Shown here piece after piece: positions 9,872-58,488 of a stretch of 64,000 nt of DNA; within the stretch, counting starts at the first letter, position 1, and every line of letters begins with the position of its first letter. The translations under genes were made by a program, and so were the position numbers. The notes beneath the pieces were generated by a model. The model did no database searches, was not told the origin of the DNA, and saw only the letters and a program-made list of their open reading frames with translations. The DNA is from Impatiens glandulifera (taxonomy: Eukaryota; Streptophyta; Magnoliopsida; Ericales; Balsaminaceae), in contig NC_061864.1 of assembly GCF_907164915.1 (NCBI RefSeq), forward strand, positions 4,175,389 through 4,239,388, given 5' to 3'.

Positions 9872-9879
9872 AATACAAG
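9872..9879. repeat. Left target-site duplication of the 12.5-kb MULE
   Basis: AATACAAG here is repeated directly at 22394-22401, immediately outside the two ends of the element. Confidence 0.85.
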
Positions 9880-10345
9880 GGGAAATTTGATGAAATGGCC
9901 CCCATAACAGGGGAAATTCCAAAAAGGGCCCCCGCCTACTAAAGTTGGCAAAAAGGGCCCTTTTGCCCCGCGAAATGTCGGAAATACCCCTTCGGCGACA
10001 TTTCTTACGCTCAAAGACGCGAATTACCAATCACGCGATTCATCTAAATCGCGTGAGTTCATCACCGCGATTTAGATGAAACGCGTGATTGGTAATTCGC
10101 GTTTTTAAATGTACGCGATTTACCATGCACGCGATTTAATCTAAATCGCGGTGATGAACTCACGCGATTTAGATTAAATCGCGTCCATGGTAAATCGCGT
10201 CTTTAGTCGTATATATAATATTTCGGCCCTAATTTAAATCAAAACCACCCCGATTCTCCCTCCCACTCCGACTTCCAAAACCACCTCTTCTCAACTGCCG
10301 ACTTCCTTCAACATCGATCAAGATCATCGTTCCTCAACATCGTTC
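9880..10345. repeat. Left terminal inverted repeat of the MULE
   Basis: About 335 bp match the right end with only a few differences, and weaker similarity continues to about 10345. The TIR contains nested palindromes built from CGCGATTTAGAT and its complement. The distal part (ACCACCCCGATTCTCCCTCCC, then CATCGTTCCTCAACATCG) is probably promoter and 5' leader of the protease gene. Confidence 0.85.
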
Positions 10346-10419
10346 CTCGTCCAACATCTTCGACTTTCCACCGTCTATTCGACATCATCGTCTTTCCACC
10401 GTCTTTTTGACATATTCCG

Positions 10420-11274
10420 GTGAGTTTAGGGCTTAATAGTTAGGGTTAGGTGTTGATGTGTATTATTCCGTTTATATTGATTTATATTGATGTATTTAGG
10501 GTTTAGGGTTTGGTTCTGGTTTCGTTTATGTGTGTAAATGCTTTTAGGGTATATGACGAGTATTGTATCAGTGTTCTTATTCTGCATGCATGCATTTCAC
10601 GCTTATTCATTCATTTCTCGTTTAAGAAATGACATTTCCGTTTTTGTTATGTGCTTGTGAAGAAATGGTATTTAGGGTTAGGGTTTAACTTTTGCTGCTT
10701 TACTGCACCTTAATAGAATGGCAATGAGACAGGTTTCGTGTTTGTTATGTGCTTCTGAAGAAATGGTATTTAGGGTTAGGGTTTAACTTTTGCTGCTTTA
10801 CTGCACCTTATTAGAATGCCAATGAGACAGGTTTCGATGTTATATTAAGAAATTTAGTCAACACGTGCTCCTAATTTGCCGTGCTGAATCAAAAGCCATA
10901 AATGATCCACACTGTATGTTCACTTTCTTGGACCATATTGCACTTGCTATAGGAAGCAAATATATCTTTCACTTTTACCTTGATTGAATGCATTTCTAAA
11001 AGTTGATCAAGTGTTAATATGTTTAATTGGAGGCTGCATCTAGATGAGTGTTCTTATATTGAATACATTGATTATAAAATCCTTTTTGATGAGTGGATGA
11101 CTCGGGAATATATATGTGCATCTATACACTAGATGCTATGATTGAACTGGACCAAACTATTTTCTGTCATGATTTATTCTGTTCCATTTTTGTTGTTGGT
11201 CTTACTATTTAATTAAATACTTATTTTGTTTTGCTAATTATCATGGTGATCCCATCTTCTTCCTTGTTTTGTAG
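10420..11274 (+). promoter_or_regulatory. Leader intron of the protease gene
   Basis: A donor (CCG|GTGAGT) at 10420 and an acceptor (TTTTGTAG|ATG) ending at 11274 put the start codon directly after the intron. It contains telomere-like TTTAGGG runs (about 10425-10510) and a 98-bp direct duplication (about 10643-10838) that also carries TTAGGGTTAGGG. Confidence 0.65.
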
Positions 11275-14200
11275 ATGGAGTCCACTACAATACCCGAGTT
11301 TGCTGGGAGGGTATCCTGGAAAACCAATATGGGAAATATTGCTGCCAAGTTTGCCAAGATGAATCTAACTGAAAGGGTAGAGGAAACCCAATTCAGATTC
11401 TTATTCAAAGGGCACCCGTTACTGCGTTTCTCAGGAATGATTATACACCACATGCTCCTCAGGAAGTCCAGCTCAAATTCTATGGAGATGAAGTTCCTTG
11501 TGAATGGAGAAGAGCTGTGCTTCGGGATGAGGGAGTTTGCATTGGTTACAGGTCTCAATTTTGGGAGATTCCCTAATGAGCAAACAATTTTCAACCAGGT
11601 TGAAGAATCTCCAACTTTGGTTCTTAAATATTTTAAACGTATTCCACTTATTAGAATAGCAGACCTTCATTCAAAATTCCTGTCCTGCTCTGATAGGGAA
11701 GATGCATGGAAATTGGGGCTGGTATACCTTGTTTCCCATTATCTCTTTGCCCTTGACCCGAGGAGGATAATAAATATGAAACTCTTCAGCATGGTCGATG
11801 ACATCGACACCTTCCTCAATTTTCCATGGGGAAAGGTGGCCTTTAGAGCAACCATGAAGGGTTTGAGCAGAGACCTTGATCGCTACAGGACGCTGTATCT
11901 GCAGAAGAAGGATGCCGCCTCGGGGAAGAAGAAGAACAAAGACAAAGAAAAAGATGTCGATGTTTCTTATACCGTATATGGGTTCGCACTAGCCTTACAA
12001 GTGTGGACTTATGAGGTGATCCAAACTTTTGTCCCCAATCTTGCAATTAAAACGACGCTTCAAACTGAAGATCCTGTCTGCCCAAGAATAATACAGTACA
12101 AATCAAAGAGGAAGAGCACTGCCTCTGATCTTCAAACTGCCCTGCAAGGCACGATTGTTAAGCAAATGGAATTGTCTGAAGAAGAGAAGATCTTATATGC
12201 TGGGGATGACTTTGAAGATATGGGAGGTAATGTTTATGATGTCTTTTTTGATCTTGACTGCAGAAAGAGGAAATTTGGAGATATTGACGATGGAGTTCCT
12301 TATAAAAAAACTGTCATGAGGAAGAAAAGGCAAATTACTCCAGCCAAAGCCATAACTTCCACAAGAAGAAGAACCCGCAACCCTACCCCCAGCACCAGCA
12401 CCAGCAGCTCTTATTCAGTCGAGAGCGCCACGAGTAGAAAAGACGAAGAAGAAGAAGAAGACGAAGACGAAGAATCCTCTCCCCCAACTCCAACAGCAAC
12501 AACTCCCCACGATAGATGTAGATTGGATCAACTTTCGAAGGAGCTAAATGAATTCAAAACTGTAATGAGAAAGGAACTGACTCTCTTCAAAACTGAAATG
12601 AGAAATGAAATAAGGCTCATCAAAACCGAAATGAGAGATGACATAATTCTCATTAAAGGGATGTTAAAGCAACTACAGCAAGGGGAGAATGATGTGGTGA
12701 ACACTGAGGACAATGATGTGGTGATTTTGGAGAAAGACAATGCTGTGCTTGTGGAGGAGAATGAAGTTGAGGTATGTATTTCTTGTATTTCCTTGCATTT
12801 GTATAATTGGTGCATTTCTTGCATTTCGACTTATTGAAGGCTTTTCTGTTTATTGTAGGATGGACAGGAGGAAGACAATGTTGGGCTTGTGGAGAAAAAA
12901 ATTGTTGAGGAGGACAATGAAAACGAAGAGAAGACAGTTGAAGATGGTGTTAAAAATACTGAGGTATGCATTTCTTGCATTTGGTGCAATTCGCGCACTT
13001 TTCCTAATTCTTGCATTTGGACTAATTGAAGGGCTTTTCTGTTTATTGTAGGATGGACAGGAAAAAGACATTGTTGGTCTCTTGGAGAAAACCACTGTTG
13101 GGGAGGGGGAGGACAATGGCAATGAAGAGCAGACAGTTGAAGATGTGGAAGAAAATTTCGAGGTATGCATTTCATGCATTTGGTGCAATTCGCGCACTTT
13201 GCCTATTTCTTGCCTTTGGACTAATTGAATGGCTTTTCTGGTTTTTGTAGGATGGGCTTTTGTTGGAAATGGAGAAGATAGTTGAAGATGGGGAACACAA
13301 TACTGAGGTATGCATTTCATGCATTTGGTGCAATTCGCGCACTTTGCCTATTTCTTGCCTTTGGACTAATTGAATGGCTTTTCTGGTTTTTGTAGGATGG
13401 GCTTTTGTTGGAAATGGAGAAGATAGTTGAAGATGGGGAACACAATACTGAGGTATGCATTTCATGCATTTGGTGCAATTCGCGCACTTTGCCTATTTCT
13501 TGCCTTTTGACTAATTGAATGGCTTTTCTGGTTTTTGTAGGATGGGATTTTGTTGGAAATGGAGAAGACAGTTGAAGATGGGGAACACAATACTGAGGTA
13601 TGCATTTGGTGCAATTCGCGCACTTTACCTATTTCTTGCCTTTGGACTAATTGAATGGCTTTTCTGGTTTTTGTAGGATGGGCTTTTGTTGGAAATGGAG
13701 AAGATAGTTGAAGTTGGTTGTCACAATACTGAGGTATGCATTTCATGCATTTGGTGCAATTCGCGCACTTTACCTATTTCTTGCCTTTGGACTAATTGAA
13801 GGGCTTTTCTGGTTTTTGTAGGATGGGCTTTTGTTGGAAATTGAGAAGACAGTTGAAGTTGGTTGTCACAATACTGAGGTATGCATTTCATGCATTTGGT
13901 GCAATTCGCGCACTTTGCCTATTTCTTGCCTTTTGACTAATTGAATGGCTTTTCTGGTTTTTGTAGGATGGGATTTTGTTGGAAATGGAGAAGACAGTTG
14001 AAGATGGGGAACACAATACTGAGGTATGCATTTGGTGCAATTCGCGCACTTTACCTATTTCTTGCCTTTGGACTAATTGAAGGGCTTTTCTGGTTTTTGT
14101 AGGATGGGCTTTTGTTGGAAATTGAGAAGACAGTTGAAGTTGGTTGTCACAATACTGAGGTATGCATTTCATGCATTTGGTGCAATTCGCGCACTTTACC

Positions 14201-15802
14201 TATTTCTTGCCTTTGGACTAATTGAAGGGCTTTTCTGGTTTTTGTAGGATGGGCTTTTGTTGGAAATTGAGAAGACAGTTGAAGTTGGTTGTCACAATAC
14301 TGAGGTATGCATTTCATGCATTTGGTGCAATTCGCGCACTTTACCTATTTCTTGCCTTTGGACTAATTGAAGGGCTTTTCTGGTTTTTGTAGGAAATGGA
14401 GAATGTTGGGAATTTGGAGGAGAAGGTGGAGGAGCAGGTGGAGGAGCAGGTGGAGAAGCAGGTGGAGAAGCAGGTGGAAGACAATGAAGATGATGTTGAA
14501 GAGAAGGTTGAAGAGAAGGTTGAAGAGAAGGTTGAAGAGGAGGTGGAAGAGGATTTCGTTGTGAAGAGGGGTAGGAAGGGGGTGCAGAGGGGTAGGAGGG
14601 TGGTGCAGAGGGTGGAGGATAATGAAGATGAGGTATGCAATTCTTGCATTTGGACTAATTGAAGACTTTTGTTGCCTAATTCAATGATTTCTTTGTAGGT
14701 GGACGATGATTTCGTTGTGCAGAGGGGTAGGAAGGGGGTGCAGAGGGGTAGGAAGGGGGTGCAGAGGGGTAGGAAGGGGGTGCAGAGGGGTAGGAGGGTG
14801 GTGCAGAAGAAGGTGGACGATCATTTCGTTGTGCAGAAGAAGGTAGAGAAGAAGGAGGACAAGCGGATAGATGAGGATGTGGTGGTACTGGAAGATGCAT
14901 CCCACATCCTATTTAAGAGAAAGAGGACGGCGTCGAAAGCTGTACTTAGTCCCTACGTCGTCCCTCGGCCAAGAAAGAAGACGATTGTTGTCGATCCTAT
15001 GTCGACTTGTAATGAGCAACTGAGGAAAGAGTTCAGGAAAGAATTTGCGAAAGGGGCTAAATTTAAAGATGTTCAACTCCCAGATGGTGCTGGAGACCTT
15101 AAGTTCTTCACTACAATTCTGAGGTTAAATAAGTGGCTAACTGATGTAGAGATGAATGCAGCAATTTGTCTGCTAAGAGCAAGAGCAGTCGCCTACCCTA
15201 AGTCGTACCCGGAGGATTTCACCATCTTAGATTGCCAGTTTGGCCCTTTGGTTACTTTATACTATGACGATTTTGTTGCTGACTCGGTTGATCCAGAAAA
15301 ACCAGAAGGCCATACTTTCTCTGACGTCTTTTACCACTACCACTGGGGTAGAGAAGATAAACATATGCCCGGTTGGAGCAGTGTTGATGTTATTTACTTC
15401 CCCCTCAACCTCAACAACCTACACTGGGTACTGTGTGTTATTCGATTGCAAGAATGGAGAATTGATGTTTATGATTGCGATCAGACAATTTTCAATGATG
15501 AAGAATTAGGAAAATACATGAAACCCATTTGTGAGATGTTGCCGCCCTTCCTTCATAAAGCAATGTCTGAAGTTGAAATGGCCAGGTATCCTAACATGAA
15601 AAATGAAACTTTTAGATTTCATAGAATCCCACACCCTGAAGTACCAAAAGCAGAATGGAGTGGGGACTGTGGCGTTTTTGTATTAATGTATTTAGAGTAC
15701 CTGACTGCTAAACTTGGTCTAGAAAATTGCATATCAAAGAATATGCAAGTATATAGAGAAAAGTGGGCAGTCAGGTTGTACCACCAGATTTTAGAGCCAT
15801 GA
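11275..15802 (+). CDS. Transposon-borne DUF1985 / Ulp1-like cysteine protease with tandem micro-exons
   Basis: Thirteen exons join in phase 0: 11275-12771, 12859-12963, 13052-13162, 13251-13307, 13396-13452, 13541-13597, 13677-13733, 13822-13878, 13967-14023, 14103-14159, 14248-14304, 14393-14632 and 14699-15802. The model is 1,170 aa. Residues 1 to about 270 look like the plant transposon domain DUF1985 (FLVNGEELCFGMREFALVTG). An acidic, coiled-coil-prone linker follows. The C-terminus is a C48/Ulp1 peptidase with the expected triad: His ~1045 in NLHWVL, Asp ~1062 in VYDCD, and Cys ~1127 in GDCGVFVLMYLEYL. Ulp1 enzymes cleave SUMO or related modifiers. The role of such proteases in MULEs is unknown. 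It converges on the transposase gene. Exons 4-11 are near-identical 19-aa modules. Exon boundaries are inferred from splice signals, not from transcripts. Confidence 0.85.
12964..14392 (+). repeat. Tandem array of intron + 57-bp exon units
   Basis: From 13163 the units are 145, 145, 145, 136, 145, 145, 136 and 145 bp. Each is an 88- or 79-nt intron (GTATGCATTT...GGTTTTTGTAG) followed by a 57-nt exon, and a final intron runs 14305-14392. The 136-bp units lack a 9-nt GCATTTCAT step. A 426-bp higher-order repeat is visible: the exon at 13541 recurs at 13967, and the one at 13677 at 14103. The first two introns and exons (12772-13162) are older, diverged members. Every exon is a multiple of three in phase 0. 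Confidence 0.95.
14549..14830 (+). repeat. Short coding repeats in exons 12-13 of the protease gene
   Basis: The stretch AGGGGTAGGAAGGGGGTGC and variants repeat on both sides of the last intron, coding repeated QRGRKGV modules. Just upstream (about 14415-14550), GGTGGAGAAGCA- and GGTTGAAGAGAA-type repeats code a Glu/Val/Lys-rich stretch. Both probably arose by slippage. Confidence 0.8.
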
Positions 15803-15804
15803 AT

Positions 15805-16220
15805 ATTGTTGTTGTATATTGTTTTGTAAACACTGAATTATTGTTGTAACATGTTTTGTAAACACTGAATTATTGTTGTATATTGTTTTGTAAACACTGA
15901 ATTATTTCAGTATATTGTTTTGTAAACACTGAATTATTTCACGTGGTTGTAATAGGTATCATAAAATTCACGTGTATTGTAATATAATTCACGTGAATTA
16001 TATAAACACGTGTATTACGTGTATTGTGTTCTGGAATATCCCAATATAATTCACGTGGTTGTAATATAATTCACGTGTATTGTAATACGCGTGATTCATA
16101 ACTCACGTGTATTACAATATGACTCACGCGTATTGTAATATTACAATACACGTGAATTACATTACAATACACGTGAATTATGAATCACGCGTATTACAAT
16201 ACAATACACGTGAATTAGCA
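15805..16220. repeat. Inverted CACGTG/CGCG array between convergent genes
   Basis: 15813-15942 holds about four copies of a 31-35 bp unit around TTTTGTAAACACTGAATTATT. 15942-16220 is packed with CACGTG, CACGCG and TGTAATA in both orientations and can form several hairpins, for example around 16125-16160. It fills the gap between the 3' ends of the protease gene (+) and the transposase gene (-), so it may act in termination or as a transposase-binding array. Function is inferred. Confidence 0.7.
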
Positions 16221-16418
16221 TTGTGCAATATATATGCGTGAGTCACTCACTGTATGGCCAACCTGTATGGAAATATCTGTATACAAATTTCAATCACCAT
16301 ACAATATTCGAAAACCAACAACAATCAATCAGCATACAATATTCGAAAACCAACAACAATAATCAGTATACAATATTCAAAATTGCACAGACAATATTCA
16401 AAATTGCACAGACAATAT

Positions 16419-19400
16419 TCATGTTTGTGGCTGAGATGATGGCGGCTGAGATGATGATGCTCTTGCAGCTCTTGCAGTAGAGGGTGCAGGCATTACAGAT
16501 TTGCATGTTGCCCTGTTGTGACCCTGACCACCACATGAGCTACATCTTCTCGGCACCTTACGAATTTCACCTTGGGATGACCTACGCTTTGTTTGAGGAC
16601 GCCCTTTCTTAACCTTAACAGGTGGTTTAAGGCACACTCGTTGTTTGATATGTTCTGGAATATCCCAATACTCTTCATGACAAACTGGATATATTGTTTC
16701 CGCGTAAGCATTGACCCACATTTCACTTGAGTAATACCTGAAACATAACAATTGAACATGTGAGAAATAAAGTTAGTTAGATAAATTCAATAGCAAATAA
16801 TCTAAAGTAAACCTTGAGCAGAACTCATAGGCATCCAATCTATGGGTACGTGATGCAGCCAGGGCATGAGTGCAAGGAAGACCAGATACATCAAATACCC
16901 TACAACTACAACTCATTCCTCTCAAGTCAACTTTATAATCAGATTCACCGTCATGGACATAAAACTCGAAACGGTTAAGTGGATGAACGTTATATAATCT
17001 GGCCTTCTCAGCTTGATCACGTAAGAACTTTTCATAATAAAAAGATAAACGTTCATTGTGATTGGAAGCTTTTTCTCTTCGACTGTTAAACCAATCTTGT
17101 AATGTGAATCTTAAATAATCAGCTAAGATTGATATGGGATACTTTCTAGCTTCCCTACTTTGACTATTGAAGCTCTCAGCGTAATTACTTGTCATTTGAT
17201 TGTATCGTTTACCCGGAAAAAATGCACGACTCCATCTCTCAAACCCAATATCTGCCAAATACATAGCAATACGAGGGTCCTTAGCATTGATCTTGTCAAA
17301 ATGCTGATTAAACTTCAAGATTGTGTATGCTTGAGAAGCCAAACCAAACTCGGCGTGGCAGTGATCGGTTTTGAATTTGGCCATAATATTCATCTTGATA
17401 TGATATGTGCACGCACCGTGGTCAGCTTCTGGAAAAACAGCACACAAGGCATTGGCGATGCTTGGGTGTCTATCAGATACAAACACGAGATCATCAACCA
17501 ATCCAATTGCATCTCTAAGTTTTTGCATGAAATAAGTCCAAGAGTTGTTATTTTCAGAATCAACAACGCCGAATGCAACAGGATAGAGTTGTTCATTCGC
17601 ATCTAATGCTATCGCCACCAATAGCTGACCTCCAACCTTGTGCTTAAGAAAACTGGCATCGACGCACAATACTGGACGACAACAGTTTTTGAAACCCCTA
17701 ATTGAGCAGCCTAAGGACATGAACATATACCTGAAATGACCGTGCTCATCCGTCTGGATGTCTGTTATGGTACCCGGATTGTTCTTCTCCAACATGTACA
17801 GGTATGATGGCAATTTACCGTAAGAATCTTCTACAGTTCCTCGCACCGCCATTAGGGCCTTTTCTCTAGACCGCCAAGCCTTATTATAAGACAACTTTAT
17901 TCCATAAGTAGTCTGTATGTCTTCCATTATTTTCTTGGGCATGTGGTCATGGTGATGGTCCATGTACTTGCTCTTCATGCATTCCCCAAACACCCATGCT
18001 GGTGCTGGCCTTTGATTCTCTTGCCTCGTCACAATTGAACAGGTATGATCTTTTACGAATTTACGAATCTCAAACATTTCCGAGGAATTTACTCTGACAG
18101 CACGCAGTCTCCACTTGCAATTCTTATCCAAACATTTCACAACCCAAAGTTCTTTTTTTGACTTCAACACTTTGAATTCAAAATGATTAGTCATGGCATA
18201 TTTATATAACCTCAGCTGAAGTTCTTTTTTATTCTCAAACAAAGAACCGACTTCCAATCCGATTCCGGTACTTACTGCCTCATGTAAAGGATTTTCACTA
18301 CTTGGTATGCTACTAGCAACCCATTCACTGCAGCTTGGTTGAGTACGAACAACAACATTGTTTTGTTGTGTACTAGGAACCCAAGAACCGCTTGGATTTG
18401 GATTGGTACTAGGAACCCAATCAGAACTACTAGGTTGGGTAATAGGAACCCAATCATCATCAGCATCATCCCCCACATTCAGACGCAAATGTTCATCTTC
18501 AATGTCATTTTCAAAGAAAACCTCACGCTGCATCGGGAAGACGTCGGGGTCATCAATTTCTGGAACAGCTACACTTTCTTGAGTTGGTAGTGACTTCTCT
18601 ACTAAGGATACACACAATGGAGTGCGGTTGTGGACTGAAACTGCTTCATGTAAAAAGAACTCCACATCCACATCTTTTTTTATATCAGTTATATAAGAAA
18701 ATTTGGCAATCATGCCAGGAGCATTATACTTGGCTTGAAGCAATAAATCATATCTAGATTTGTCAACATCGGTAGCAGAATAAATTTGATCAACTAATTG
18801 GGCATAAGTAGAATTTTGGGGAACAATCATACCGCTGTTTGACTTTGCAGAAAAATGAGTAAGATCGTCCGTAGTTTTCCACTCTCCATCAAAGTAAAGA
18901 AGTACAGGTACTTGAGCTGCAATTGAAGTACAAGTCCTTAACCCTCTCTATATTATATTAAAGCTATAATTAAAGTACAACACATACAAGTAAATAGACA
19001 CCAACTAAATAACATCTTCAAATAAGTATTCAAATTGAACAAACTTTGTTTCTTACAAGACTCTAATGAAATCAAGTCTATCAGTACTAACAAATAATAA
19101 CATATAACAATTGTTAGGTGTAAATGAACTAACTGAAAGAGAAATATGATTGAGTAAAGACTGTTTATACCAAAACCATATATATACCCAGCTTTATACT
19201 CTATCAAGTTCAAAATTTATCATCATTGTTAATAAATAAGCCAAGGTTCAATATATAAGAAACAATCCATAGAAGTACAGGTTAGGGTTTGATGATAAAC
19301 AATTTCAGATATTATTCTTCCTTTCAATTCAATTCATTTCTTCTATCTGAATCTTTCATCTCTCTTACTCTCTTAGTAATGATAACTAAGAGTGTTTACG

Positions 19401-19480
19401 TAATCAAATCATTTCAATCATCCACAAATTACCCTTACTTTATTTGAATAGCAATTTAAATATTACATAAACATACCCAT
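16419..19480 (-). CDS. MULE transposase (MURA-like)
   Basis: Three exons: 19480-19477 (only ATGG), 18916-16813 and 16737-16419, giving 808 aa. The tiny first exon is chosen because ATGG|GTATGT joins to CT-CAA-GTA to read MAQVPVLLYFDGEW, a usual MULE transposase start. The MULE DDE domain carries Asp ~421 (CVDASFLKHK), Asp ~483 (VSDRHPS) and Glu ~582 (NYAESFN). A SWIM zinc finger follows at about 670-690 (CSCRVFDVSGLPCTH), and exon 3 adds a CCHC knuckle (CSSCGGQGHNRATC, ~768). An N-terminal repeat region (about 120-190) has WVPS/T motifs. All catalytic and zinc-binding residues are present, so the enzyme could be active. The promoter is probably the internal TIR-like block at 19.6-20.0 kb. It acts in the nucleus on the element's TIRs. 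Confidence 0.9.
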
Positions 19481-19589
19481 TTTGAGAACGAAGATGTGTG
19501 GGTAAGCTGCTGCTGCTCGTGGTCGGGTTCTTCAGGGTATCGTGGTGTCGTCGTAGTCGTCCGCTGCTGCTGCTCGTGGTCGAGTTCTT

Positions 19590-20035
19590 CAGGGGAGGGT
19601 CGAGTCGGAGTGGCGAAAGCGAGAGAAGAGAGAAGGGGAAATTAAGGATTCGTGGTTTTGTTATAAATTAGGGCACAGAAATAATATATACGATGAAAGA
19701 CGTGAATTGTTATTCACGTGTTTCATATAAAACACGTGAATAAACTCACGCGTTTTATTGTGAAATGAATTCACGTGTTTCATCTAAAACACGTGAATAA
19801 ACTCACGCGTTTTAATGTGAAATGCATTCACGCGTTTCATCTAAAACGCGTGAGTTTATTCACGCGTTTTAGATGAAACACGTGAATAGCAACATTGTTC
19901 CTTGTTCCTTGTTGTTTGAGTTATGTGGAGAATATGCGTGAATAACAACATTGTTCCTTGTTGTTTGAGTTATGTGGCGAATAACAACATTGTTCCTTGT
20001 TGTTTGATTATACACAATACGCGTGAGTTATGAGG
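19590..20035. promoter_or_regulatory. Internal TIR-like block, probable transposase promoter
   Basis: GTCGGAGTGG, TGGTTTTGTT, AATTAGGGCA(C)AG, AATATATA and AAAGACG occur in the same order and orientation as in the right TIR (about 22000-22080). They are followed by palindromic CACGTGTTTCATCTAAAACACGTG and ACGCG units in place of the TIR's CGCGATTTAGAT units, then by short repeats of AACATTGTTCCTTGTTGTTTGA (19898-20010). Position and orientation fit a promoter for the transposase gene, which starts at 19480 on the minus strand. Confidence 0.7.
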
Positions 20036-20211
20036 ATAAGTTATGATATTGTTAACATAAGTAATAAAGCATAAATAGAAGAATATTCAGTAATATAAAC
20101 CACCATAAATCATAAATATCCAAATTAAGTATTGTTATAAACCATAAATATCATAAATATCAAAAATAAGCCATAAATAGAAGAAGAACAGTAAGTCTAA
20201 ACAACTCCAAA
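20036..20211. other. Spacer downstream of the BRCT gene
   Basis: AT-rich spacer with repeated CCATAAATATC-type words; likely 3' UTR of the BRCT gene. Confidence 0.4.
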
Positions 20212-21215
20212 TTAAGTAAGCAAATGCTGCAAATCACAAGCAGCAACAGATTGAAGCAACTTTGTATGAGGAACAACATGTTCATCCAATATGCTTGACA
20301 AAGCAGCCGCTGTCTCAAAAAGCCAATTGTCGGGGAGAACATCAAAATCCTTTTCTTCAATTGATCGATACCTGCTGTCTATCTCGAAGTATACTATTAT
20401 AGTTTTCGCATCCCTTGGCTCAGCAAATGGATAATCTGGATTATCCGATTCTTTAATAGTACCACCTCCAGCAACTATTAACTCAATGAGATCCTGTTTG
20501 TAAAGTGTGTTGAAATTCCCTACAAATATAAAAATGTAACCGTCGAACAGTTTCGAACGCTGAAAAACCAACAAAGAAGATAATTTCAGTTATCATGCAA
20601 AAAAAGAAAAAGTACAGATAGGAGGAATAATACCAAACTCACATTATTCAACAACAGAAGTCTGCCTTTTCTAGGACCACCTTGGGCTCCATGATTATCA
20701 TGTTTAACCTCATAAGGTTCCTCATCAACACAGTTTTCTGTTTCCAATGATGATTTTATCCCTAAACAAATGTGTATGAAAATAATTTTTAATCTAATTT
20801 AACAGACATATGTATGAAAATAATCTTGTTAACAGAGACTCACAATCAATAGTAAGGACCCATTTCCCGTTCAGAATTGCCTTCAATACTTTTTGAGTTC
20901 GGCCGCATGCACCATTGGGATCAGTGTAAGCAATAACATGAGTTACATCTTCTCTCCACTTCGGAGACACCCTTGCACCAAAAGTGCGAGCAAATTCAAC
21001 TATCAACAACTGTGTAAAACAATAATATAATGGTTATTACATACAAAACTAGTTAATATGGACATAGTAGAGAGAATAGAACATACATTATTTTCAGGTG
21101 ATAATTGATTGGGACATAAGGTCATAACAGTGTTTGTTGCCTGCATATTATAAAAAAAAAGAGTTGAACGAACTGAGAAAACAATTTTATTAAAATCCAT
21201 TTTAATACATACCAT
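20212..21215 (-). CDS. Tandem-BRCT (BARD1/BRCA1-like) gene captured by the MULE
   Basis: Exons 21215-21213 (ATG), 21140-21087, 21009-20844, 20761-20643 and 20559-20212 join in frame to 229 aa. BRCT1 (residues ~5-75) has PNQLSPENN, FGARVSPKWREDVTHVIA, ACGRTQKVLKAILNGKWV and a Trp split by an intron. The linker carries VDEEPYEV. BRCT2 (~115-225) has KLFDGYIFIFVGNF, LIELIVAGGGTI and DNWLFETAA. Order, spacing and the VDEEP linker match the C-terminus of plant BARD1/BRCA1, which reads phosphoproteins in DNA repair. RING and PHD parts of the host gene are absent, and introns are kept, so capture was at DNA level. The start codon ends a leader exon whose upstream part derives from the right TIR. Homology is from memory of the family. 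Confidence 0.8.
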
Positions 21216-21261
21216 TTTGTTGAACGAACTGAGAAAACCAGACGGCAGCTCCTGATCTAAA

Positions 21262-21880
21262 TACTACAATATCCATCATTATAAACAGCAGAATATACAT
21301 CAATAGCTAACCATACAATATTCATGTAATTGAAAATCAACAATCAATCAGTATATATAGGAAAACCAAACCTTAAACCCTAAATACAACAATATCCATG
21401 AATATGAATGGCAGAATATACATCGAAACCTAACCCTAAACATAAATACTATAATATCTATCAATATAAATGGCAAAATATACATCAAAACCTAACCATA
21501 AACCTAAATACATCAATATCCATTATAAACAGCATAATATACATCAAAACCAAACCCTAAACCTAAATACATCCATATAAATGGCAGAATATACATCGAC
21601 ACCTAACCCTAAACCCAAATACTTCGATATACATAGGAAACGGCATAATATACATCAAAACCAAACCTTTACCCCTAAATACACCAATATCCATGAATAT
21701 AAACGGTAAATATACATCAAAACCTAACCCTAAACCTAAATACTTCGATATACATAGGAAACGGCATAATATACATCAAAACCAATCCTTTAACCCTAAA
21801 TACATCCATATCCATGAATATAAACGGTAAATATACATCAAAACCTAAGTCTAAACCCTAAGCCCTAAACTGACCTGATG
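21262..21880. repeat. Right subterminal tandem repeats of the MULE
   Basis: A degenerate array of units of about 60-125 bp built from AAACCTAACCCTAAACC, TAAATAC(TT/AT)CGATAT and GGCATAATATACATC. It is rich in telomere-like CCCTAAA words. On the minus strand it lies in the leader intron of the BRCT gene, whose probable donor (CAG|GTCAGT) is near 21875. The same words occur once in the left leader intron, so the array grew on the right side. Confidence 0.75.
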
Positions 21881-21904
21881 ATGTTGAAGAACGATGATGT
21901 TGGA

Positions 21905-22393
21905 AGGATCTCGATGATGTTGAGGAACGATGATGTTGAGGAACGATGATGTTGAGGAACGATGATCTTGATGGATGTGGGAATGGAAAGTCGGCCGCAG
22001 TCGGAGTGGGAGGGAGAATCGGGGTGGTTTTGTTTTTAATTAGGGCAGAAAAGTAATATATAGGACTAAAGACGCGATTTACCATGGACGCGATTTAATC
22101 TGAATCGCGTGAGTTCATCACCGCGATTTAGATTAAATCGCGTGCATGGTAAATCGCGTACATTTAAAAACGCGAATTACCAATCACGCGTTTCATCTAA
22201 ATCGCGGTGATGAACTCACGCGATTTAGATTAAATCGCGTGATTGGTAATTCGCGTCTTTGAGCGTAAGAAATGGCGCCGAAGGGGTATTTCCGACATTT
22301 CGCGGGGCAAAAGGGCCCTTTTTGCCAACTTTAGTAGGCGGGGGCCCTTTTTGGAATTTCCCCTGTTATGGGGGCCATTTCATCAAATTTCCC
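21905..22393. repeat. Right terminal inverted repeat of the MULE
   Basis: Inverted copy of 9880 to about 10345. The outer 335 bp are almost identical to the left TIR. The inner part carries several copies of GATGTTGAGGAACGATGAT (21885-21975), expanded relative to the left end. It probably supplies promoter and leader for the BRCT gene. Confidence 0.85.
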
Positions 22394-22401
22394 AATACAA
22401 G
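22394..22401. repeat. Right target-site duplication of the MULE
   Basis: AATACAAG, the direct repeat of 9872-9879. Confidence 0.85.
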
Positions 22402-56669: not shown

Positions 56670-58488
56670 AATCACATTTGGTTAAATGTTATACTTGTTT
56701 TTGTTAGTTTGCAAGTTCGAAACCTACAAATAACATTTTTAAATACATTTTTAACCGTTTTATGTTTATGGGCGGGTCAACCCTTAATCCGACCCAAATA
56801 TCCATTTACTCTCATATAAATATCCAAATTAACCACAGCTCTCGACCCCTGGTAATCCGGACACTTTAAAAATTAAGCATCATTATATATATATAGATTA
56901 GTTAGTTAAAAATTTGAACTTTTAATGTCTCGCGTTCATCAAATTTGATGTTGAATCTTAAATATAAAGTGTTGTTAGCCTAGTTGTTAAAGAGTTGTAC
57001 TTGTTTTGTTAGGTTGCAAGTTTGAAACTTACAAATAACATTTTTAAATTTATTTTTAACCGTTTTAAGTTTATCGGCGGGTCAACCCACAATCCGACCC
57101 AAGTATTCATTTACTCTCACATAAATATTCAAATTAACCACAACTCTCGACCCGACAATCCGGACACTTTAAAAATTAAGCATCATTATATATATAGATT
57201 AGTTAGTTAAAAATTTGAACTTTTAATGTCTCGCGTTCATCAAATTTGGTGTTGAATCTTAAATATAAAGTGTTGTTATCCTAGTTGGTTAAAGAGGTGT
57301 ATTTATTTTGTTAGGTTGCAAGTTCGAAACCTACAAATAAAATTTTTAAATTTATTTTAACCGTTTTAAGTTTATGGGCGGGTCAACCCACAATCCGACC
57401 CAAATATCCATTTACTCTCACATAAATATTCAAATTAACCACAGCTTTCGACCCCGCAATCCGGACACTTTAAAAATTAAGCATCATTATATATATATAT
57501 ATATTAGTTAGTTAAAAATTTGAACTTTTAATGTCTCGTGTTAATCAAATTTGGTGTTGAATTTTAAATATAAAGTGTTGTTAGCCTAATTGGTTAAAAA
57601 GTTGTACTTGTTTTGTTAGGTTGTAAGTTCGAAACCTATAAATAATACTTTTAAATTTATTTTTAATCGTTTTAAGTTTATGGGCGGGTCAACCCATAAT
57701 CCGACCCAAGTATCCATTTACTCTCACATAAATATCCAAATTAACCACAGCTCTCGACCCGGCAATCCGGACACTTTAAAAATTAAGCATCATTATATAT
57801 ATATATGTAATAGTTAGTTAAAAATTTGAACTTTTAATGTCTCGCATTCATCAAATTTGATGTTGAATCTTAAATATAAAGTGTTGTTAGCCTAGTTGGT
57901 TAAAGAGTTGTATTTGTTTTGTTAGGTTGCAAGTTTAAAACCTACAAATAACATTTTTAAATTTATTTTTAACCGTTTCAAGTTTATGGGCGGGTCAACC
58001 CACAATCTGACCCAAGTATCCATTTACTCTCACATAAATATCCAAATTAACCACAACTCTCGACCCGGCAATCCAGACACTTTAAAAATTAAGCATCATT
58101 ATATATATATAGATTAGTTAGTTAAAAATTTGAACTTTTAATGTCTCGCGTTCATCAAATTTGGTGTTGAATCTTAAATATAAAGTGTTGTTAGCCTAGT
58201 TGGTTAAAGAGTTGTATTTGTTTTGTTAGGTTGCAAGTTCGAAACCTACAAATAACATTTTTAAATTTATGTTAAACGTTTTAAGTTTATGGGCGGGTCA
58301 ACCCACAATCCGACCAAGTATCCATTTACTCTCACATAAATATCCAAATTAACCACAGTTTTCCACCCCGCAATCCAGACATTTTAAAAATTAAGCATCA
58401 TTATATATATATATTAAATTAACCACAGTTTTCCACCCCGCAATCCAAACATTTTAAAAATTAAGCATCATTATATATATAGATTGAC
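56670..58488. repeat. Tandem array of ~305-bp tRNA-like SINE units
   Basis: About six units with spacing of 303-308 bp; the GTTCGAAACC-type word lies near 56707, 57015, 57318, 57623, 57927 and 58230. Each unit carries an A-box-like TAGCCTAGTTGG (for example 58192-58203) and, about 34 bases on, a B-box-like GTTCGAAACC (58237-58246), as in RNA polymerase III promoters of tRNA-derived SINEs. Next come TTTATGGGCGGGTCAACCC and an AT-rich end, ATTAAGCATCATTATATATA. The last ~67 bp (58325-58480) are duplicated once more. Function as a SINE is inferred from the boxes. Confidence 0.75.

Follow-up and report, generated by a model that had tools for sequence, protein, structure and literature searches.

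A tandem intron-exon array, probably of minisatellite-like origin, in a predicted VANC/Kaonashi-like gene of a TIR-bearing MULE from Impatiens glandulifera

In a window of 64,000 nucleotides of Impatiens glandulifera DNA (the whole stretch that was analysed, and to which all positions refer), a predicted DUF1985-Ulp1 gene of a MULE contains a tandem array of small introns and exons (12772-14392, + strand; introns i1-i11 and exons e2-e11, according to the gene model and the unit alignment). We consider it probable that the gene is VANC/Kaonashi-like, that its MULE is a TIR-bearing one, and that the array arose by intragenic, minisatellite-like growth where the linker tolerates it; the repeat unit of this minisatellite happens to comprise a complete small exon together with a complete small intron. 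The best reading is that of a new, apparently recent and unusually clean case of a kind already described, a VANC/KIU-like gene with a minisatellite-like intron-exon array. As such, it would be a clean example of exon gain in a VANC-like transposon gene, in which intron and exon are copied together and the frame is safe at every step.

The element and its DUF1985-Ulp1 gene

The MULE measures 12,514 bp (9880-22393), as delimited by its TIR arms and end sequences. Its 8-bp target duplication, AATACAAG, was read by eye as a direct repeat at 9872-9879 and 22394-22401. Alignment of the TIR arms places the left TIR, which is dense in CpG-rich repeats, at 9880-10273 (+ strand) and the right TIR at 21999-22393 (- strand); the TIRs are about 395 bp long and identical in 383 of 395 aligned columns. 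Domain matches (MULE, PF10551; DBD_Tnp_Mut, PF03108; Transposase_mut, PF00872; and SWIM, PF04434) define a MuDR-type transposase ORF on the - strand (16773-18830), opposite to the Ulp1 gene. When viral contigs were scanned with the transposase, seven stretches fitted a pattern, none of which (0/7) encodes a relative, and the core of the array intron had no match in such contigs. Two further minus-strand ORFs inside the MULE (20212-21009) match BRCT domains: that at 20794-21009 matches BRCT (PF00533, E 1.7e-8) above the curated cut-off, while the matches of that at 20212-20574 (NIBRIN_BRCT_II, BRCT_2 and BRCT) are all below it. Judged by these matches, they are perhaps a third, intron-bearing gene or a captured host gene fragment within the MULE.

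The predicted DUF1985-Ulp1 gene (11275-15802, + strand; splice-site model and Pfam) has 13 exons and a product of 1170 amino acids. The model takes GTATG[CT] as donor and TGTAG as acceptor on the + strand, with an ATG at 11275 and a stop codon ending at 15802, and yields exons of 1497, 105, 111, eight times 57, 240 and 1104 bp. It agrees with the earlier note in that all exons are multiples of three (13/13) and all 12 GT-AG introns are in phase 0, hence every unit is frame-neutral, and the joined exons form an open frame of 1170 codons for amino acids. Each of the 12 introns holds an in-frame stop when read through in phase 0, therefore the possibility that the introns are coding sequence was rejected. 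A CTAAT/CTTAT site, which we take to resemble the plant branch site, is present in all 12 introns according to a script count, 25-26 nt from the 3' end in 11 of them and 40 and 19 nt from the 3' end, as two sites, in i12.

Pfam places DUF1985 (PF09331) at amino acids 67-195 of the product (E 3.7e-23; 82.5 bits against a cut-off of 35.1) and Peptidase_C48/Ulp1 (PF02902) at amino acids 948-1168 (E 1.2e-31); the Plant mobile domain gives a sub-threshold match, and no Pfam match to DUF287 is found in the 1170-aa product up to E 0.01. In the Ulp1 domain (14699-15802), a His, an Asp and a Cys, presumably with catalytic roles, align with those of SENP1, although that match is weak (E 0.0016). Six residues ahead of the Cys the domain has an Ala, in place of the Gln of SENP1 and SENP2, both weak matches. 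Between the two conserved domains lies the linker that had been described as acidic, and the eight 57-bp exons are indeed so, encoding 48 D+E against 8 K+R in 152 amino acids.

Anatomy and growth of the array

Eight near-identical 57-bp exons, each with its own intron, had been recognized in a transposon gene, and the gene model, the small unit differences and the MULE context all bear this out. These exons, e4-e11 (+ strand), occupy 13251-14304 with the introns between them: e4-e7 are at 13251-13307, 13396-13452, 13541-13597 and 13677-13733, and e8-e11 at 13822-13878, 13967-14023, 14103-14159 and 14248-14304. The interval assigned to them in the earlier note, 12859-14392, does hold all eight, but it also includes two more diverged exons, e2 (12859-12963, 105 bp) and e3 (13052-13162, 111 bp), both placed on the + strand by the gene model and the unit alignment; the array consequently has ten exon units rather than eight. 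Introns i2-i11 are 88 bp long except for two of 79 bp, so that the 57-bp units measure 145 or 136 bp, as had been stated. The last intron of the gene, i12 (14633-14698, + strand), is partly homologous to the array introns according to the unit alignment.

In pairwise comparison, 0-10 of 145 sites differ between any two of the eight 57-bp units (gap columns left out), and the units e10+i10 and e11+i11 are identical. The mean distance between units is 5.0, 6.2, 4.0, 5.8 and 7.3 at lags one to five, with the minimum at lag three, and the 9-bp deletion common to the two 79-bp introns recurs at positions three units apart. Unit alignment and TRF reveal two copies of a 426-bp higher-order block (13453-14304, + strand), of which 13453-13878 and 13879-14304 differ by 3 mismatches in 426 positions. 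TRF detects periods of 145, 281 and 426 over the array with 91-97% matches, the 145-bp array scoring 2095 (93% matches) and the 426-bp period 2295 (97% matches), both far from chance. At the diverged end the likeness of the introns is 77% between i1 and i2 and 92% between i2 and i3. Adjacent homologous exons are thus accompanied by homologous introns of the same phase, which is the hallmark of tandem exon duplication with symmetric exons. The proposal that the genomic intron-plus-exon unit was amplified in at least two rounds is upheld by the 426-bp block, and from the layout of the units we infer that the array grew in at least three layers, namely old long units, then the 57-bp form, then three-unit blocks.

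Arrays of near-identical units are easily collapsed or expanded in assembly, and the identity of e10+i10 and e11+i11 might be seen in this light; the number of units could be misassembled, or splicing could differ from the prediction. However, the units differ in a patterned way, the array, of about 1.6 kb, is short for a long read, splice sites and frame are intact in every unit, and domains are found on both sides of the array. We therefore regard an assembly artefact or a wrong gene model as very improbable.

On the preferred reading, minisatellite-like growth, the units would have been multiplied by unequal exchange or replication slippage, the longer exon (105/111 bp) probably first, the 57-bp form next and the three-unit blocks last. 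Each new unit would bring its own splice sites and 19 in-frame residues into an acidic linker without strong sequence constraint, for which reason growth of the array may have been tolerated.

Constraint on the linker and its possible use

Repeat growth in the linker does not depend on introns, since TRF finds coding repeats inside its exons: a 33-bp repeat in exon 1 (12554-12657, + strand) and 12-bp and 21-bp repeats in the last two linker exons, split by i12 (14415-14807, + strand).

Among the eight 57-bp exons 8 of 57 sites are variable and 7 of these 8 are non-synonymous (counted by hand), whereas the nine introns i3-i11 show 3 substitutions in 88 sites and one 9-bp indel, 11 further raw variable columns of the intron alignment being read as placement of the 9-bp gap. 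On this ground the claim that the introns are as similar as the exons holds. By raw sites (8/57 against 3/88) variability is higher in the exons (Fisher p 0.025); however, five changes lying close together in one cluster account for most of this excess, and when the clustered exon change at 38-45 and the indel are taken as one event each, the comparison becomes 4/57 against 4/88 (p 0.71). The exon/intron comparison within the array gives no clear support for purifying selection on the peptide repeats, and with no deficit of variable sites in the exons, conservation of the peptide does not exceed that of the intron. The higher raw variability of the exons could reflect diversifying selection, with counts that are too few to tell it from drift.

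These data bear on a second explanation, which regards the array as an adaptive device. Recombination or exon skipping would change the number of units and with it the length and charge of the linker, and an anti-silencing protein engaged in an arms race with its host could in this way be adjusted in its activity or in the targets it chooses. Any internal exon can be skipped with the frame kept, as the length of each of the 11 is divisible by three; the acidity of the 57-bp exons and the raw excess of mostly non-synonymous exon variation point the same way. In Arabidopsis, VANC genes contain tandem peptide repeats, their exon/intron layouts are linked to tandem repeat formation, and Hosaka et al. 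(2017, PMC5735166) speculate on a role of the repeats in target choice, so the statement in the earlier note that no described role was known needs to be corrected. The disappearance of the exon excess when events are counted weighs against an adaptive device, as does the growth of plain coding minisatellites in the same linker, which makes it needless to invoke anything special about the introns, and we judge this explanation unlikely. Within minisatellite-like growth, the linker repeats may do nothing specific or may tune target choice, and it is possible that splicing or recombination varies the array in functional ways. Should copies of the element differ in their number of units, the idea that target specificity is set by VANC repeats could be put to a direct test.

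A candidate target motif and the array introns

VANC proteins of Arabidopsis VANDAL MULEs bind short motifs in the non-coding tandem repeats of their own family, whereby silencing is removed. By analogy, the product of the predicted gene probably binds motifs within non-coding repeats of the MULE itself and would counter silencing. The element supplies a candidate target motif family, HTCRCGY, a pattern derived by eye from the MULE following a k-mer scan and counted on both strands. With counts inflated by duplication, it occurs 53 times in the 2,822 bp of four element parts (13 in 9881-10433, 14 in 15803-16418, 13 in 18953-20210 and 13 in the right TIR) against 34 in the 51,301 bp that lie outside the element. 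The motif scan delimits two non-coding arrays of the family, one between the two genes (15938-16242) and one upstream of the transposase (19700-20027), both of which are dense in CACGTG/CACGCG-like motifs. CpG o/e is 1.51 in 15803-16418, 1.14 in 18953-20210 and 1.67-1.71 in the TIR ends, compared with 0.67-0.75 outside the element. The 3513 bp of ULP exons contain no HTCRCGY and the transposase ORF contains three; elsewhere in the element the motif is sparse, with one copy in 10434-11274 (841 bp) and none in 20211-21998, which includes 789 bp of non-coding sequence (21210-21998). Work on eudicot VANC systems in EMBO J in 2022 reportedly describes a helical spacing of the motif. A spacing of this type is not supported for the dense arrays, where no clean multiple of 10.5 bp is seen by eye and spacings are mostly 14-33 bp, a few being 56-85.

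One copy of HTCRCGY is present in each of ten of the 12 introns (i2-i11) and none in i1 and i12. This distribution raises the idea that the intron, carrying one candidate target motif of anti-silencing, was amplified for its own sake and took the 19-aa exon along; the density of the motif in the four element parts and its absence from the ULP exons are in its favour, as is the finding in VANDAL21 that motif-bearing target arrays also occur in VANC21 and VANB21 introns (PMC5735166). Against it, the motif was defined by eye from the same element, and the introns, with one copy per 136-145 bp across most of the array, carry it less densely than the TIR and intergenic arrays do. The CpG o/e of the introns is 0.58, lower than in the flanks. 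Other non-coding parts of the element are nearly without the motif, as the counts for 10434-11274 and 21210-21998 illustrate. Moreover, among random stretches of 88 bp, HTCRCGY is present in 219 of 4648 taken outside the element, in 48 of 880 from its coding sequence and in 16 of 491 from its remaining parts; shuffling the intron produces it 160 times in 5000 when dinucleotides are shuffled and 310 times in 5000 when the shuffle is simple. According to these controls a single hit in one ancestral intron is only weakly beyond chance; it is the TIR and intergenic arrays that are striking. The sharing of 8-mers between the intron and the motif regions is weak evidence, since the intron is equalled or exceeded in this by 3277 of the 4648 stretches from outside the element, though an 8-mer with two CpGs common to the motif regions, as found in the intron, occurs in only 92 of the 4648. 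Amplification driven by the intron is, in our view, improbable. The two ideas may be combined in a two-sided cassette, where the exon of each 136-145 bp unit adds 19 linker residues and its intron adds one copy of a motif bound by the protein, which would amount to self-targeting in anti-silencing. Exon and intron being in one unit, a single recombination event would then alter the protein and its DNA target together, a scheme that we hold to be very improbable.

Relation to known genes and arrays

By domains and setting the gene fits a VANC/KIU-like assignment: it combines DUF1985 and Ulp1 (C48), lies in a MULE beside a MuDR transposase and is accompanied by non-coding arrays of a candidate motif. 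With the VANC genes of VANDAL MULEs it shares, as far as the available text of PMC5735166 goes, a DUF1985 gene in a MULE, a repeat-bearing variable region and non-coding motif arrays. A Pfam match to DUF1985 alone is no proof of VANC function. It departs from Arabidopsis VANC in its Ulp1 protease domain, in the failure to detect DUF287 and in the long, near-identical TIRs of its element; some VANC genes do carry Ulp1 (KIU), according to a 2026 review (PMC13317346). In a comparison with VANC genes made through their description in the available text, the repeat unit here differs in being a clean intron plus exon with a 426-bp block. VANDALs are described with degenerate TIRs (PMC10398659); absent or degenerate TIRs are not what is found here, nor is the DUF287 of an Arabidopsis-type VANC. 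We do not file the MULE, with its TIRs of about 395 bp that are identical in nearly all aligned columns, as a VANDAL; the VANDAL clade of one paper does include TIR-bearing elements (46-174 bp; PMC6446971).

An Ulp1-domain sequence within a MULE is also known from Kaonashi (KIU) genes and the ULP1-bearing MULEs of grapevine, melon and rice, and in KI-MULEs this sequence is in reverse orientation (PMC2528002 and PMC13317346, both in excerpt). The Arabidopsis KI-MULEs, in the same excerpts, are described as non-TIR, unlike the present element with its TIRs, and the portions of the two papers that were available mention no intron-exon array for Kaonashi/ULP1-bearing MULEs. For intron-exon arrays in transposon genes more widely, the matches listed, which cover few subscription papers and in which the term may differ, hold no account outside PMC5735166.

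Whole-exon blocks in tandem, prone to copy-number change, are described in the nebulin triplicate region and the titin repeat (PMC9142044 and PMC9109913). Those blocks are multi-exon and belong to host muscle genes, whereas here one 57-bp exon and one 88-bp intron are repeated in a transposon. Schistosome micro-exon genes contain many small frame-neutral exons. The array resembles them in this layout. Outside the MULE, the window contains a separate 306-bp tandem repeat of 5.7 copies (56678-58413, TRF).
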